NCBI GenBank assembly: GCA_026398615.1
Contig: JAPLSN010000040.1
Coordinates: 1 to 40,911, forward strand
Length of the DNA stretch: 40,911 bases
Source of the DNA: Spirochaetota bacterium
Lineage (GTDB): Bacteria > Spirochaetota > Spirochaetia > Treponematales > UBA12059
Direction: 5' to 3'
Each line of letters begins with the position of its first letter. The first letter of the stretch is position 1. Below are positions 34,214-40,911 of the stretch, in pieces. The translations under genes and the position numbers were made by a program. The notes beneath the pieces are model-generated. The model worked only from the letters and a program-made list of their open reading frames with translations, ran no database searches and was not told the origin of the DNA.

Positions 34214-35674
34214 ATGGAAGTACGCGTACGTTACGCCCCGTCACCGACTGGTTTCCAGCACATAGGCGGCGTGAGGACCGCGCTCTTCAATTACCTGTTC
34301 GCCCGCGCGAACGGAGGCGCGTTCATCCTCAGGCTCGAGGATACGGACAGGACCCGATACGCCGATGAGTATGTCCAGAACCTGTACGACACCTTCGACT
34401 GGCTCGGGTTCAAATGGGACGAAGGCCCGGATATCGGAGGAAAGTGCGCGCCATACGTCCAGAGCCAGCGTTTCGAGCTCTACAGGGAGCACGCGGAAAA
34501 GCTCGTCGCTATGGGGAAGGCCTACTACTGCTTCTGCGACGAGGACAGGCTCGAGCGTATACGGAAGATACAGACCGTGAACAAGATGGCGCCGGGCTAC
34601 GACCGCCACTGCCGGAGCCTGGCGCCCGACGAGATCAAGGCGAATCTCGACGCGGGGAAATCCTTCGTGATCAGGCTCAAGATCCCGCTCGAGGGGGCAA
34701 CGGCCTTCCATGACCTGCTCCTCGGCGACATTGAATGGAAGAACGAGGACGTCAGCCCGGATCCCGTGCTGCTCAAGTCGGACGGTTTCCCGACCTACCA
34801 TCTGGCCAACGTCGTGGACGACCACTTCATGCGCGTCACCCACGTCCTGAGGGCGCAGGAATGGATTCCGTCCACTCCGATGCATGTCGTCATGTACGAA
34901 GCTTTCGGCTGGATGCATCCCGAGTACTGCCATCTGCCGATGGTGATGGGCTCGGACGGCCACAAGCTTTCCAAGCGCCATGGCGCCACGAGCATGAACG
35001 AATTCCGGAACGGCGGGTACCTCAAGGAAGCCGTCATCAACTACATCGGGATGCTCGGCGCTTCCTACGAGGAAGGGAAGGACCTGTTTTCCCTCGCGGA
35101 GATGGAAATGCTGTTCAGGGTGGACAAGCTCAACAAGGCTCCCGCAGTCTTCGATTACAAGAAACTGGAATGGTTCAACGGCCAGTACATCAGGCTCAAG
35201 ACCGACGCCGAACTCTACGAGCTCATAGTGCCCTTCCTCGAGAAGGATGGGGTTGTCGGCCATGCGCCGGACGGAGCGACAAAGGCCCTGCTTTTCGGCG
35301 TCATGCCGCTCATCAAGGAGCGCTTGCGCTACCTGACCGAAGTTTCCGGGATGGTGCGTTTCTTCTTCGAGGAGCCAGCGGTGCCGCCGCTGGCGGACCT
35401 GGTGCCGAAAAAACTCGACGTCTCAAAAACGCGCGCCATCCTCGCCAGGGCTTCGGAACTCCTTGAATCCGCCGACCTGTCGAACCACGAATCCACGGAA
35501 GCTGCGTTCCGCGCCGCGGCTGACGAACTCGGCGTCAAGCTTGGGGACATGCTCATGCCCGTGCGGATGGCGGTCACCGGGACCCGCGTGAGCCCGCCGC
35601 TTTTCGAAAGCATCAGGATCCTGGGAGTGGAAAAGGCCCGCTCCCGCATCGGTTCTGCGATCGCGGCTTTCTGA
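34214..35674 (+). CDS. gltX: Glutamyl-tRNA synthetase
   Basis: A 486-residue class I synthetase charging tRNA-Glu. The ATP-binding HIGH motif appears as HIGG at 16-19 in YAPSPTGFQHIGG, and KLSKR is at 251-255. A CxCx-type zinc-binding insertion is reduced (YYCFCDEDR). The C-terminal helical anticodon-binding domain is complete to residue 486. The gene has its own promoter overlapping aroH and a strong terminator placed inside the end of the convergent cNMP-binding gene. Confidence 0.97.
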   Translation: MEVRVRYAPSPTGFQHIGGVRTALFNYLFARANGGAFILRLEDTDRTRYADEYVQNLYDTFDWLGFKWDEGPDIGGKCAPYVQSQRFELYREHAEKLVAMGKAYYCFCDEDRLERIRKIQTVNKMAPGYDRHCRSLAPDEIKANLDAGKSFVIRLKIPLEGATAFHDLLLGDIEWKNEDVSPDPVLLKSDGFPTYHLANVVDDHFMRVTHVLRAQEWIPSTPMHVVMYEAFGWMHPEYCHLPMVMGSDGHKLSKRHGATSMNEFRNGGYLKEAVINYIGMLGASYEEGKDLFSLAEMEMLFRVDKLNKAPAVFDYKKLEWFNGQYIRLKTDAELYELIVPFLEKDGVVGHAPDGATKALLFGVMPLIKERLRYLTEVSGMVRFFFEEPAVPPLADLVPKKLDVSKTRAILARASELLESADLSNHESTEAAFRAAADELGVKLGDMLMPVRMAVTGTRVSPPLFESIRILGVEKARSRIGSAIAAF

Positions 35675-35693: not shown

Positions 35694-36209
35694 TCAGGCG
35701 CCCCCTCGGTTGCGCGGGGGCGTTTTTTTCGCGTCATCGGCAGCCGGTTGCTTTGCCTCAGCCGTCGATTTCTGCCATCCGGACCCCGACAGCATCACTT
35801 CGTCCATGTGCCTGAGCCGGCGCGAAAGGTCGCGGGCGAGATTCATGATCATGAGGGCGAATGTCCTGATCTCCAGGTGGTAGATCTCATGGATGGCATG
35901 GTTGGAGATCGTCGCGACCCTTGTATGAACAAGCGCTTTTACAGTGGCTGCGGACGGCATGACATCGAGCAGTTCCATCTCGCCGAAAGCGTCGCCTTCG
36001 GCGAACTCGACGAGGCGGATGCCGAGCCGGGAGACTTCCACGCGGCCTTCCAGGATGAACTGGATGCGATCATTGGATTCGCCTTCCCTCATGATCGTTT
36101 CGCCCTCATCGAAGGACGCGTACTCGAGGAGGGGCTTGATGCGTTCGATTTCCTCGGGGAGCATCCCGCCGAAAAGGGAATATTTCTGGAGGGCTGCGCT
36201 ATCGACCAT
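35694..36209 (-). CDS. Single cyclic-nucleotide-binding domain protein
   Basis: A 171-residue protein with one CRP-type cNMP-binding domain (about 8-125): LFGGMLPEEIERI, FDEGETIMREGESNDRIQFILEGRVEV, and the ligand-pocket strand GDAFGEMELLDVMPSAATVKAL. In CRP the pocket is GExALxxxxPRxAT; here E is kept but R is replaced (PSAAT), so nucleotide binding is doubtful. There is no DNA-binding domain; the C-terminus is a helix (LARDLSRRLRHMDEVM) and a Lys/Pro-rich tail. Its ATG overlaps the stop of the membrane protein upstream (TGATG), so both are made together and may interact. The last codons coincide with the gltX terminator. Confidence 0.85.
   Translation of the reverse strand: MVDSAALQKYSLFGGMLPEEIERIKPLLEYASFDEGETIMREGESNDRIQFILEGRVEVSRLGIRLVEFAEGDAFGEMELLDVMPSAATVKALVHTRVATISNHAIHEIYHLEIRTFALMIMNLARDLSRRLRHMDEVMLSGSGWQKSTAEAKQPAADDAKKTPPRNRGGA
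35698..35729 (+). terminator. gltX intrinsic terminator, inside the convergent gene
   Basis: CGCCCCC (35699-35705) pairs with GGGGGCG (35716-35722), then seven T (35723-35729). The hairpin overlaps the final codons of the cNMP-binding gene on the other strand. Confidence 0.9.
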
Positions 36210-37996
36210 CAGGGGGCATCCCTGAGCAGGCGATCGATGTCGAGCTTCCATCGTCCGTCGCGCCAGGCAGCGGCACGCTCGAGAGGCCCCGAGAAGACGG
36301 AGTGCAAATCCATGAATTCGAGCTCGATGAGTTCCCTCCCCGTCATGGATACGTCGACTTTGTCAAATTGGAGCTTGAGTCCGAGATTCTCGCCGAGGCC
36401 TTCCTTCGCTTCGAACATCCATGGGTTTTCGCCGTACAGCGGCTTGCCGTCGGTCCCGAGCAGCTGGATGCGAACAGGTGCCGCACCGGGATTCTTCACA
36501 TACAGCGCTCCTTCGCCGCCGAGCAGCTCCGGAACGATTTCCATGAGCCAGGATCCGGACTTCCTCCAGACGGCGGCCTTCGCCATCGGGTGAAGGCGCC
36601 GCGATCCGCCCTGCATGACGATCTCGACGCGTTGCGCGGCCGATACCTGGAGGGGTCCGCTCGCCCCGACGTTGAGCCATTTCCCGCTTGGATCGCCGGC
36701 TCCCTCGAGCGCGCCGAAACTCCACGACGTATCATGGAGCGCCGAACCGTCCGGCTCGAGGACGCGGAATGTGACCGGGTTCCTTGTCAGGTTGCGCACG
36801 TACAACCTGCCTGTCCCGCCCATCCCAGTGGACGGTGGCGGCGGCGTTCGCTCGATCGCCAACAGCCATTCCGAGCCGTCCCAGCGCGGATACCGTTCTT
36901 CTCCGTTCCGGAGCACCAGCCCCTCAGAGGCGATACGCAGGACGGCAAGGTCGGCGCCACGCGTGGCCTTGAACGCGGCATCCCCGATGACGAGCTCGAT
37001 ATCCTTGCCAGTTTCGTTCCCTTCGAAATCCCAGGAATTTTCGCCGATGACGATCCTGAACGCTTCGCTTGCCGGGTTCATGTCGATCGCACCGGTCCTG
37101 GAAGCGTCGAATATGCCGCCTTCCTCGAACAACCCTCTCGTGGCGAAAAAAACTCCCGCTGAAAACGACAGGACGGCGAACAAGGCCAGCAGGACCGCAC
37201 GGCTGCCGTGCTTTCCCAGCCGGGAACTGGCGGTTCGCCCCTGGGATCGTACGAGGATACTGTCCGGATCGTCCAGCACATCGTTCCCCTGCAGGACGAA
37301 TCCGCCCGAATCGTTTCGCGCTGTCCCGAATACCTGTACTTCATCGCCGGGTAACAGCGCGATCTCCCTGACGCGGATCTGGGTCGTTTTCCTTTCATCA
37401 TGACCGTCGATTCCGAGAGCGTCTCTGGCGAGCCGTCCCAGCACCGGCAGCTTCGACCGGAGCGTGCCCATGCTGAAAACCCGTTCGGTCCAGCCGGACG
37501 AATCGATGATCCCGGGACCGGACAGTCGCGCGATACCCGTGTCATCGCGCACGGAGATGCCGCTCCAGTATGAATCCACGGTTACCGTCGGGCCGGGTCC
37601 CTTTCCCAATCCTTCGAGGATCTCCGCTTCGATGCGGTAGGCCAGGCTATCCCTTCCGGACAACGGAGCGGCCTTGACGGGATCGCCCGATACTATTCCT
37701 GCGATCGACGCATGGAGTGAAACGCCTCGCATGATTCCGTTCCCGGAGAGCGCCGATTCGATATCCTGGATGGAATACCGTTCATGGCCGCTGAACTCTC
37801 TCAGGTCCGAAAGCCTTTTCCTGTACCGGGTTTTCCCGTACGCCACGACCGCTTCGATGCCGAGATGGGCCGCTGCCGCGATGAGGAGGATGGCCGGGAT
37901 CCAGGACGCGTCGTCCCCGGATCCGAGAATAAAGAAGCCAAGGGCCAAGGCGGCAGCGGCGGCGTTCACCAGCTTGAAGACATTCCTGAGCCTCAT
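36209..37996 (-). CDS. Membrane protein with GIDE/BAM-like domain and two tandem ~100-residue repeats
   Basis: A 595-residue protein of unknown function. Two N-terminal membrane helices lie at about 7-27 and 31-53 and another at about 266-286. Between them, residues 100-250 resemble the GIDE/BAM domain of MULAN-like proteins: DPVKAAPLSGRDSLAYRIE, SVRDDTGIARL, and IALLPGDEVQVFGTA. There is no RING finger. After the third helix come repeats of about 100 residues, 397-487 and 497-587, sharing LYV(R/K)N, PV, DG, W-F-A-EG-G, VS, A-AAWR-G-W-L-I; a degenerate earlier copy may cover about 312-381. The start ATG 37996 has GGGAGG 6 bases upstream. TGATG overlap with the cNMP-binding gene follows. Assignment to the GIDE family is by pattern only. 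Confidence 0.8.
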   Translation of the reverse strand: MRLRNVFKLVNAAAAALALGFFILGSGDDASWIPAILLIAAAAHLGIEAVVAYGKTRYRKRLSDLREFSGHERYSIQDIESALSGNGIMRGVSLHASIAGIVSGDPVKAAPLSGRDSLAYRIEAEILEGLGKGPGPTVTVDSYWSGISVRDDTGIARLSGPGIIDSSGWTERVFSMGTLRSKLPVLGRLARDALGIDGHDERKTTQIRVREIALLPGDEVQVFGTARNDSGGFVLQGNDVLDDPDSILVRSQGRTASSRLGKHGSRAVLLALFAVLSFSAGVFFATRGLFEEGGIFDASRTGAIDMNPASEAFRIVIGENSWDFEGNETGKDIELVIGDAAFKATRGADLAVLRIASEGLVLRNGEERYPRWDGSEWLLAIERTPPPPSTGMGGTGRLYVRNLTRNPVTFRVLEPDGSALHDTSWSFGALEGAGDPSGKWLNVGASGPLQVSAAQRVEIVMQGGSRRLHPMAKAAVWRKSGSWLMEIVPELLGGEGALYVKNPGAAPVRIQLLGTDGKPLYGENPWMFEAKEGLGENLGLKLQFDKVDVSMTGRELIELEFMDLHSVFSGPLERAAAWRDGRWKLDIDRLLRDAP

Positions 37997-38025
37997 GCCA
38001 CCTCCCTGTCTGCACTTCACATGTT

Positions 38026-38055: not shown

Positions 38056-38072
38056 CACCAAACCTTCAGGAC

Positions 38073-38522
38073 TCAGGTACCGCAACAGTTCCGCTTCCAG
38101 ACCGCTCCCAGCAGGAAAAGCGTCATGAGTGGATCAGTCGAGATCCAGAGCACGCCGGATCCCGACCCGCCGCCGGCCAGGGTCAGGCAGTAGTCGAAGG
38201 CGAATATGACCGCGCAGTCGAAGATGCTGCCCGCGATGAGACGCTTCGTATAGCGGATGAAGATGAAATTGACGAAAACGACGGCACTTGCGACGGCGCA
38301 GGCCGACGGACAGGCGGAACGTCCGGCTTCTATCTTGAAGGGAATCCCGATGATGGGAACGCCCGCGGGCCACGATGCCGATGATGGCGCAGATGTCCCA
38401 CTCGCAGGGACGGTCGCGGTCCGGAGGTAGGGGTTGAGGTACCCCGGATCCTCCCCGGGCATGTCGCGGAAAACCCCGACCGTGGATTCGATGAGCGGCT
38501 CGATGCGCGCGATATCCATCAT
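38073..38522 (-). pseudogene. Chimeric remnant: CheX-like N-terminus joined to a membrane-protein-like C-terminus
   Basis: The open frame is 149 residues. Its start resembles CheX, the CheY-P phosphatase: IARIEPLIESTVGVFRDM. The next CheX-like motif, WDICAIIGIVARG, occurs in the -1 shifted frame (around 38380-38420), with strongly coding third positions there, and the main frame resumes with VPIIGIPFKIEAG. The remaining C-terminus does not look like CheX but has three hydrophobic segments (VVFVNFIFI, LIAGSIFDCAVIFAF, LMTLFLLGAV) with GC-rich third positions. A good Shine-Dalgarno (GGAGG) is kept at the start. It overlaps the cheY remnant by 4 bases. The simplest reading is frameshifts plus a deletion fusing two genes; a misread pair of bases in the assembly is the alternative. 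Confidence 0.5.
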
Positions 38523-38665
38523 TCCTCCAGGTAACGGTATTCGATGATCCTGAAGGCTTCGGCCCCGTCGGCGGCTTCCAGGTAGGCTGCATCGGCGTAT
38601 TTCGGTTCCTTGACGAGCGCGTTCTTGATGATGTTCCGCATGATTCGGGAGTCATCGACAACCAG
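38519..38665 (-). pseudogene. Truncated CheY-like receiver remnant
   Basis: About 48 codons encode the first two-fifths of a chemotaxis response regulator: LVVDDSRIMRNIIKNAL with the acidic pair, then YLEAADGAEAFRII. It stops before the phospho-acceptor aspartate region and so cannot be phosphorylated. No ATG, GTG or TTG starts this frame near the motif; the only nearby ATG (minus strand, about 38682) is in another frame. The end overlaps the cheX-like remnant as ATGA, suggesting the two came from an intact cheY-cheX operon. Confidence 0.7.
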
Positions 38666-38776
38666 TATTGTAACTTCAGCATAACAGATACCGATTTCTG
38701 GGGCAAGCCTCGAGCGGGCCGCGCCCGCATCAGTGCATCCGCGTACCGAGGCTAGTTCCCCGCGGAACCTTTCCGG

Positions 38777-38782: not shown

Positions 38783-38878
38783 CCCAGCGTGTCGGGAGCA
38801 TCTTTCCAGCGGAAGCGAGTTCCCGGCGACACCCCACCGAGCCTCCACGCCACGGAGGTACCGTCAAGGAGACCCAAG

Positions 38879-40237
38879 ATGGCAGACAACGACGAAACTC
38901 TAACCATGGATAAGGTCGTATCGCTCGCAAAAAGGCGCGGCTTCGTTTTCCAGTCCTCCGAGATCTACGGCGGGCAATCCGGGGCTTGGGACTATGGTCC
39001 GCTCGGGATCGAGCTCAAGAACCGCATTCAGCGGTTCTGGTGGAAGGAAATGACCCAGCTCCACGACGACATCGTCGGGCTTGACGCGGCCATACTCATG
39101 CATCCCATGGTCTGGGAAGCCTCCGGCCATGTCGCCAATTTCACCGATCCCCTCGTGGACTGCAAAAAATGCAAGCAACGTTTCCGCGCCGACCTGATGC
39201 CCGAGGACAAGCTCGCCAGGAAGGAATGTCCAGAATGCGGCGGCGAACTGACCGACACGCGCAAGTTCAACCTCATGTTCAAGACCAACATCGGCCCGGT
39301 GGACGACGGCTCGGGGTTGATCTACCTGCGGCCCGAGACCGCCCAGGGCATCTACGTCAACTACAAGAACATCGTGCAGTCCAACCGGATGAAGATTCCA
39401 TTCGGGATCGCCCAGGTCGGGAAAGCCTTCCGCAACGAGATCGTGACCAAGAACTTCATCTTCCGCACCTGCGAATTCGAACAGATGGAAATGCAGTACT
39501 TCGTCAAGCCGGGCGACGACGTGAAATTCTTCGACTACTGGCGCGAGCAGCGTTGGGCGTACTACCAGAAGCTCGGCGTTCGCATGGAACGCTTGCGCTG
39601 GCACCAGCACGGCCCCGGTGAGCTCGCGCATTATGCGAAGGATGCGTACGACATCGAGTACGAATTCCCCATGGGCTGGAAGGAGCTCGAGGGCGTCCAC
39701 AACCGCTCGGATTACGACCTTACCCAGCACCAGAAGTTTTCCGGCAAGGACCTCCAGTACATCGACCAGGAAAACAACAACGAGCGATTCGTGCCGTACA
39801 TCATAGAGACGAGCGCGGGACTAACGCGCCAGCTTCTCATGCTGCTCTGCGATGCATACGAAGACCAGAAGGTCGCGGACAAGGGGAACGACGACGACTG
39901 GCGCACCGTGCTCCATTTCCATCCCGAGCTGGCACCGGTCACGGTCGCGGTGCTTCCCCTCATGAAGAAGGACGGGTTGGCTGAACTTGCACGGGAAATC
40001 CGGGGCAACCTCAAGGAAGACTACGCAACCGACTATGACCAGTCGGGTGCCATCGGCCGCCGCTACCGACGGCAGGACGAGGCGGGGACGCCGTACTGCG
40101 TCACCATCGATTACCAGACGAAGGAAGACGGCACCGTCACCGTCCGCGACCGCGACAGCATGGAACAGGTCCGGGTCAACAAGGATGAACTCCAGGAGCA
40201 CCTGAGGAGCAGGATCAGGAATTACGGAAGGAAATAG
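38879..40237 (+). CDS. glyS: Glycyl-tRNA synthetase, homodimeric (eukaryotic-type)
   Basis: A 452-residue class II synthetase that charges tRNA-Gly. It is the single-chain alpha2 type, not the alpha2beta2 GlyQ/GlyS type. Features include SSEIYGGQSGAWDYGPLG near the N-terminus, a zinc-knuckle-like insertion with CKKCKQRF and CPECGGEL, LIYLRPETAQGIYVNYKN (motif 2 region), FRNEI, and ETSAGLTRQLLMLL (motif 3 region). The C-terminal anticodon-binding domain begins near residue 340 (APVTVAVLPL). AAGGAG is 8 bases before ATG 38879, which fixes the start over an upstream in-frame GTG. It is the enzyme that would supply glycyl-tRNA both to ribosomes and to the FemX-like enzyme. Confidence 0.97.
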   Translation: MADNDETLTMDKVVSLAKRRGFVFQSSEIYGGQSGAWDYGPLGIELKNRIQRFWWKEMTQLHDDIVGLDAAILMHPMVWEASGHVANFTDPLVDCKKCKQRFRADLMPEDKLARKECPECGGELTDTRKFNLMFKTNIGPVDDGSGLIYLRPETAQGIYVNYKNIVQSNRMKIPFGIAQVGKAFRNEIVTKNFIFRTCEFEQMEMQYFVKPGDDVKFFDYWREQRWAYYQKLGVRMERLRWHQHGPGELAHYAKDAYDIEYEFPMGWKELEGVHNRSDYDLTQHQKFSGKDLQYIDQENNNERFVPYIIETSAGLTRQLLMLLCDAYEDQKVADKGNDDDWRTVLHFHPELAPVTVAVLPLMKKDGLAELAREIRGNLKEDYATDYDQSGAIGRRYRRQDEAGTPYCVTIDYQTKEDGTVTVRDRDSMEQVRVNKDELQEHLRSRIRNYGRK

Positions 40238-40757
40238 GCAGAGGAACGCGTTCAAAACCATGTTGGTGTCCGGATGTGCCGGGCAGCATCACAGACGAAG
40301 GCTTACGCTCCCGGACGTCAGCCTTCGCAACATGAGATCCTCCCCAACGTACATTGATGTCCGGGCACCCGCATGAGCGCCGGTAAATCGCTTGCGTTGG
40401 CAGGACGATATCGTCGTCCGACACGTTTCCCGCGAGCTTCGCGATCAGACTCATGACCGAAGGCCGCCCCGCGAGTTCGGTGGGCGCGCGCACAGTGCTC
40501 AGGGGTGGATCGATCATCCCGGCGTAGTGCTGGTCGGCGAAACCAACGACCGATACTTCCGCCGGCATGTCGATGCCCAGAGCGTGGAGCGCAAGGATGG
40601 CGCCGTAGGCCGAGTCATCGTCCGCCGCGAACACGGCGTCGGAATCCCTGCCCTGCGCGGTCCAGGTCGAGCGTCGCCCGTTCCACACGGGATGAACCGA
40701 AAATGGGGTCATCACATGCTGCGATGATAATGGCAAGCCACTGAGGGAAACTTCCAC
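40215..40757 (-). pseudogene. Fragment of a LacI-type ligand-binding domain
   Basis: The 180-codon frame holds only the last part of a LacI/periplasmic-binding-like sensor: DAVFAADDDSAYGAILALHALGIDMPAEVSVVGFADQ, then DPPLSTVRAPTELAGR and the ending YRRSCGCP. The first 37 residues do not match the family, and the usual DNA-binding and first ligand lobes are missing from the frame and not seen upstream up to 40911. The C-terminus runs about 50 residues beyond the normal end and overlaps glyS by 23 bases on the opposite strand. An intact gene would need about 340 residues. A frameshift is the alternative to a deletion. Confidence 0.6.
40296..40327. repeat. Inverted repeat downstream of glyS
   Basis: CGAAGGCT (40296-40303) pairs with AGCCTTCG (40320-40327) across a 16-base loop. 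There is no T tract after it on the plus strand, so it is at best a weak terminator or RNA-stabilising hairpin for glyS. Confidence 0.4.
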
Positions 40758-40911
40758 AGTTGGGTACTATCCTGCTGATATGAAGTGACCTGTCAACAGG
40801 GATTTTTAACTTTCTCATATTTTGTTCCTGGCAAAGCAGTTCGAGCAAAGGCCGAAGAAGCTTTCGACGACGGTTGATCACTCTGATATTCGTGGATCGA
40901 ACCCGAAGGTC
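40758..40911. other. Unassigned end of the window, lower GC
   Basis: No gene is supported here. The stretch is richer in A and T than the rest (around 40800-40830) and continues upstream of the LacI-type fragment, where the missing part of that gene should be. Short frames on the minus strand show no recognisable domain. Confidence 0.3.

Follow-up and report, generated by a model that had tools for sequence, protein, structure and literature searches.

Remnant of a probable accessory cheY-cheX-membrane kinase operon in a Spirochaetota genome that keeps its chemotaxis genes

CheX, CheY and their kinases in spirochaetes

Two known arrangements in spirochaetes are close to the locus described here. 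In Leptospirae, CheA-CheC/CheX fusions are reported, in which a single fused protein of the chemosensory CheA carries the phosphatase (PMC10542144). The other arrangement is the spirochaete che cluster cheA-cheW-cheX-cheY, which likewise encodes CheX and CheY, and which is present on a different contig (C23) of the genome under study.

The window analysed here is an entire contig (G000:C40) of 40,911 nucleotides, from a genome (G000) of 3.38 Mb in 43 contigs that is 99% complete. Its minus strand carries, from 38674 to 38068, pieces of three genes with their order kept. The same three genes in the same order make up intact cheY-cheX-kinase operons in G011 (JAHIWF010000124.1), G002 (MIAR01000009.1, GWB1_60_80) and L102 (Treponema sp. 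UBA12037), to which the surviving pieces are 56–86% identical; whereas those operons are intact, the remnant has lost roughly four fifths of its coding sequence. The C23 che cluster is also intact, but the CheA-like frame there includes a CheW domain and its CheX is 29% identical to that of the operon. As in the Leptospirae fusions, kinase and CheX phosphatase are genetically tied, although the operon, unlike the fusions, has separate genes and a kinase without a matched CheW domain (PMC10542144).

We consider the locus, with a probability of about 0.93, to be a non-functional remnant of an accessory signalling operon encoding CheY, CheX and a membrane kinase.

Structure of the remnant

When six proteins from the intact G002 and G011 operons were compared with this region of the window (tblastn), they matched collinear pieces on a single strand:

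38540 to 38674, minus strand: CheY remnant, residues 1–45 of 123, start codon lost
38424 to 38519, minus strand: CheX remnant, residues 1–32, 66% identical to G002 CheX (E 5e-12)
38374 to 38418, minus strand: CheX remnant, residues 35–49 (EWDICAIIGI), in a different frame (0 of 500 shuffles)
38319 to 38372, minus strand: CheX remnant, residues 125–142 (W..VPIIGIPFKIEAGR), in the first frame again (0 of 500 shuffles)
38299 to 38319, minus strand: possible CheX remnant, residues 143–149 (FRLSVGL), in another frame; weak alone (E 1.0)
38100 to 38303, minus strand: third-gene remnant, residues 64–131 (membrane domain) of a membrane histidine kinase
38068 to 38109, minus strand: probable further kinase remnant, residues 279–292, in another frame (E 0.34)
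38073 to 38522, minus strand: 149-aa open frame spanning CheX and kinase pieces, without a Pfam match

The strong pieces have E values from 1e-24 to 5e-12 within the searched region, and the significance of the short ones was judged by comparing the observed score with dinucleotide shuffles (500, 500 and 200). The CheY piece is 58–62% identical over 50 positions (E 1e-17), and the kinase piece of residues 64–131 is 60% identical to the G011 kinase (E 1.5e-24 by tblastn in a 901-base region), with a separate search recovering it at E 1.3e-19. For kinase residues 279–292 the score was reached by 0 of 200 shuffles, in a test limited to the collinear part. A search for the remainder of CheY between the CheY and CheX pieces found none, with 258 of 500 shuffles scoring equally high. 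A nucleotide alignment to L102 aligned the CheX start, but across the large gaps it set the CheY and kinase pieces in wrong positions; the break points were therefore taken without it.

The original prediction, of a receiver cut off before its phospho-acceptor and lacking a usable start, then an ATGA-coupled CheX-like start and a frame-shifted CheX motif, describes these junctions correctly. The CheY remnant (VTILVVDDSRIMRNIIKN...) is closed by a TGA once the match to CheY 1–45 has ended; Pfam Response_reg covers 39 of 111 positions. Between the remnant and the stop at 38866, upstream in this frame, neither ATG nor TTG occurs, and the sole GTG (38848) lies 58 codons away. An ATGATG overlapping the CheY stop opens the CheX N-terminus. 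The ATGA overlap is not ancestral, since cheY stop and cheX start are 14 nt apart in G011 and 8 nt in L102. The EWDICAIIGI motif does lie in a different frame, and beyond what had been noticed earlier a third CheX piece (VPIIGIPFKIEAGR) returns to the first frame. The remaining sequence had been said to resemble a membrane protein; this holds, and it can now be identified as residues 64–131 of the kinase, the third gene of the intact operon.

The 149-aa frame could also be read as a new small membrane protein, a CheX/kinase fusion translated from the ATG that overlaps the CheY stop. It stays open across the junctions, which counts against decay, has GGAGGA directly ahead of its ATG and contains two hydrophobic stretches. 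Part of it, however, reads CheX in the wrong frame, it has no Pfam match, the CheY frame before it has no start, and by our estimate it is not unusual at the local G+C for about 40 noncoding codons to stay open. A functional fusion protein is thus extremely unlikely.

Extent and mode of decay

About 198 of 952 codons survive. Relative to G011, the computed gaps amount to about 231 bases in cheY and ahead of cheX, about 224 bases within cheX (including the ExxN site, ahead of the residue 125–142 piece), about 254 bases across the cheX-kinase border and about 450 bases within the kinase gene, whose C-terminus is also missing. At least four internal deletions, loss of the C-terminal half of the kinase and frame shifts have together left about 0.6 kb of an operon of about 2.9 kb, removing every catalytic centre while leaving the pieces in order.

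The losses were set against alignments of 98 (CheY), 93 (CheX) and 94 (kinase) intact rows. In CheY, D55 is kept in 98 of 98 intact copies; the remnant has this position deleted together with the C-terminal two thirds of the protein, and residues 1–45 fall short of a receiver fold with its phospho-acceptor Asp. CheX E90 and N93, kept in 93 of 93 copies, are both deleted, leaving a sequence with neither the ExxN motif nor a full-length frame and with no Pfam match. Likewise deleted are kinase H407 and N536 (kept in 90 of 94 copies, the other four being gaps), and with them the Hpt domain and its histidine and the HATPase domain expected of a membrane CheA-like kinase.

What survives has changed little. 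Near-invariant columns are broken at 3 of 33 positions (CheY 0 of 15, CheX 3 of 14, kinase 0 of 4), and the codon-position G+C of the pieces is still coding-like. The column test dropped identical rows and rows with at least 10% gaps in the retained columns, leaving 86, 84 and 69 rows, among which some unnamed and named rows may represent the same genome. The three broken CheX columns exceed the number in all but one of 84 intact copies, and one of them (column 5) is also altered in the nearest intact relatives, G011, G002 and L102. Few substitutions combined with large deletions suggest a decay that looks deletion-driven and recent relative to the divergence from these relatives.

It might be argued that the true genome has an intact operon that the assembly or sequencing collapsed, given that the contig stops at 40911 and the genome is in 43 contigs. 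This would require several separate deletions of about 224–450 bases, and frame shifts, inside 600 bases flanked by open genes; moreover, no second copy of the kinase or of the operon-type CheX occurs elsewhere in this 99% complete genome. The neighbouring long frames (36209–38020, 34214–35674 and 38789–40237) are open, which speaks against general sequencing error. An artefact is therefore very unlikely. With collinear homologous pieces, deletions, frame shifts and intact relatives, the remnant is best read as an ordinary pseudogene operon, and the earlier claim that this copy has decayed stands.

The intact operon in relatives

The 40-residue CheX start, searched against 58 relatives, gave matches at E up to 0.01 in three of the genomes, namely in G000 and in G002 and G011, the latter two belonging to one sister genus in the same family. 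Their intact operon encodes CheY of 123 aa, CheX of 155–156 aa and a kinase of about 680 aa, with Response_reg, CheX and HATPase_c above the Pfam cut-offs; the MASE6-type membrane domain and the Hpt domain of the kinase fall slightly below cut-off in G002 and G011 and above it in L145.

Across 23 genomes of the family, two (G002 and G011) have a full-length kinase; G000 retains the remnant alone, and the version in G003 is diverged, one of its matched stretches being interrupted by a stop. Among 346 genomes of the class, 32 matched the kinase at E up to 1e-60, and cheY and cheX lay beside the kinase in 19 of 20 fetched class loci, in two of which (L097 and L098) the membrane part of the kinase went unmatched. 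In named loci fetched with a CheY alignment, cheX and kinase follow downstream in 70 of 80, cheX only in 5 of 80, with L131 and L153 among these having about 1 kb or less of contig remaining, and kinase only in 5 of 80. The conserved arrangement can be seen, for example, in L006 (11316–14289), L007 (1464–4381), L102 and L112. The operon thus has a wide but patchy distribution among spirochaetes, and losing it, as here, is not exceptional. The searched portions of the literature on spirochaete CheX operons yielded no description of a cheY-cheX-kinase operon, and a literature search on MASE6 yielded nothing relevant.

The broken genes had originally been taken for a chemotaxis operon. A canonical one would have a kinase with a CheW-type coupling domain; in the two intact kinases scanned, no CheW domain was found at E up to 1. 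For this reason the operon is better regarded as encoding an accessory phosphorelay than as the main chemotaxis operon, and coupling of the intact kinase to receptor arrays appears unlikely. From its domains (a MASE6-like membrane domain, Hpt and HATPase) and conserved residues, the membrane kinase would be expected to autophosphorylate at the Hpt histidine; the phosphate would then most likely pass from the Hpt domain to the stand-alone CheY, and CheX may strip it off again, resetting CheY.

Chemotaxis and motility genes elsewhere in the genome

The original prediction had also suggested that this might be one of several copies, or that the lineage might be losing motility, and had proposed a genome search for chemotaxis and flagellar genes. 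That search found a CheA-like frame, a receiver, CheX, CheW-domain genes, flhA and flagellin-domain genes. Two intact CheX genes occur elsewhere, in agreement with the first suggestion. One belongs to the che cluster on C23, where a CheA-like 967-aa frame matching both HATPase and CheW is accompanied by CheX, a CheW-domain gene and a receiver identified by eye; part of one C23 gene is presumably cheR. The other (L002/L009 6402–6851, minus strand; G000:C24) is 37% identical to the CheX of the operon; the 14 kb fetched around this gene gave no match to CheY or to the kinase. Contig C2 carries a second kinase in which HATPase and CheW were matched.

A general decay of chemotaxis and motility would have as its sole support the broken cheY and cheX homologues at this locus. 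Against it stand an intact flhA, four matches to the flagellin domain, 13 to the receptor signalling domain (12 above cut-off) and six to the CheW domain, the intact CheX genes and the che cluster on C23. Loss of motility is rejected on gene content, with next to no probability left to it.

Genomic neighbourhood

The neighbouring synthetase genes are ones that we take to be glyS and gltX. Comparing the glyS locus in relatives, as had been proposed, gave no parallel: in 21 glyS loci from other genomes (L011–L031, with up to 1.5 kb of flank on either side) there was no match to cheY, cheX or the kinase. Two loci alone place glyS beside an intact operon, L095 and L145; they share their coordinates and probably represent a single genome. 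In them glyS is found downstream of the operon, in the same orientation and past a small gene pair, an arrangement that differs from that of the window. A conserved position next to glyS is thus rejected. The gene pair in L145 (3453–4117; genome labelled Treponema denticola) resembles, by eye, a PIN-type toxin and its antitoxin.

Adjoining the remnant is a 603-aa open frame (36209–38020, minus strand), for which Pfam gave nothing across the 595 aa scanned and which had no counterpart matched in the fetched loci. Beyond glyS, where the contig ends, lies a fragment of a LacI-type regulator (40215–40911, minus strand; Peripla_BP_3 positions 71–167 only), cut off from its N-terminal half, which looks like a second decayed gene.

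Implications

In this genome a broken cheY-cheX pair does not amount to a loss of chemotaxis, and that tempting inference is corrected here. The locus exemplifies deletion-led gene decay caught early. It is conceivable, and offered tentatively, that the intact module is an unstudied membrane-anchored spirochaete phosphorelay that works independently of receptors and CheW and has a CheY and a CheX phosphatase of its own, that spirochaetes can dispense with it and have lost it patchily, and that the genome described here may serve as a natural deletion mutant that keeps chemotaxis. The remnant in any case points to a conserved and apparently little studied signalling operon of spirochaetes.
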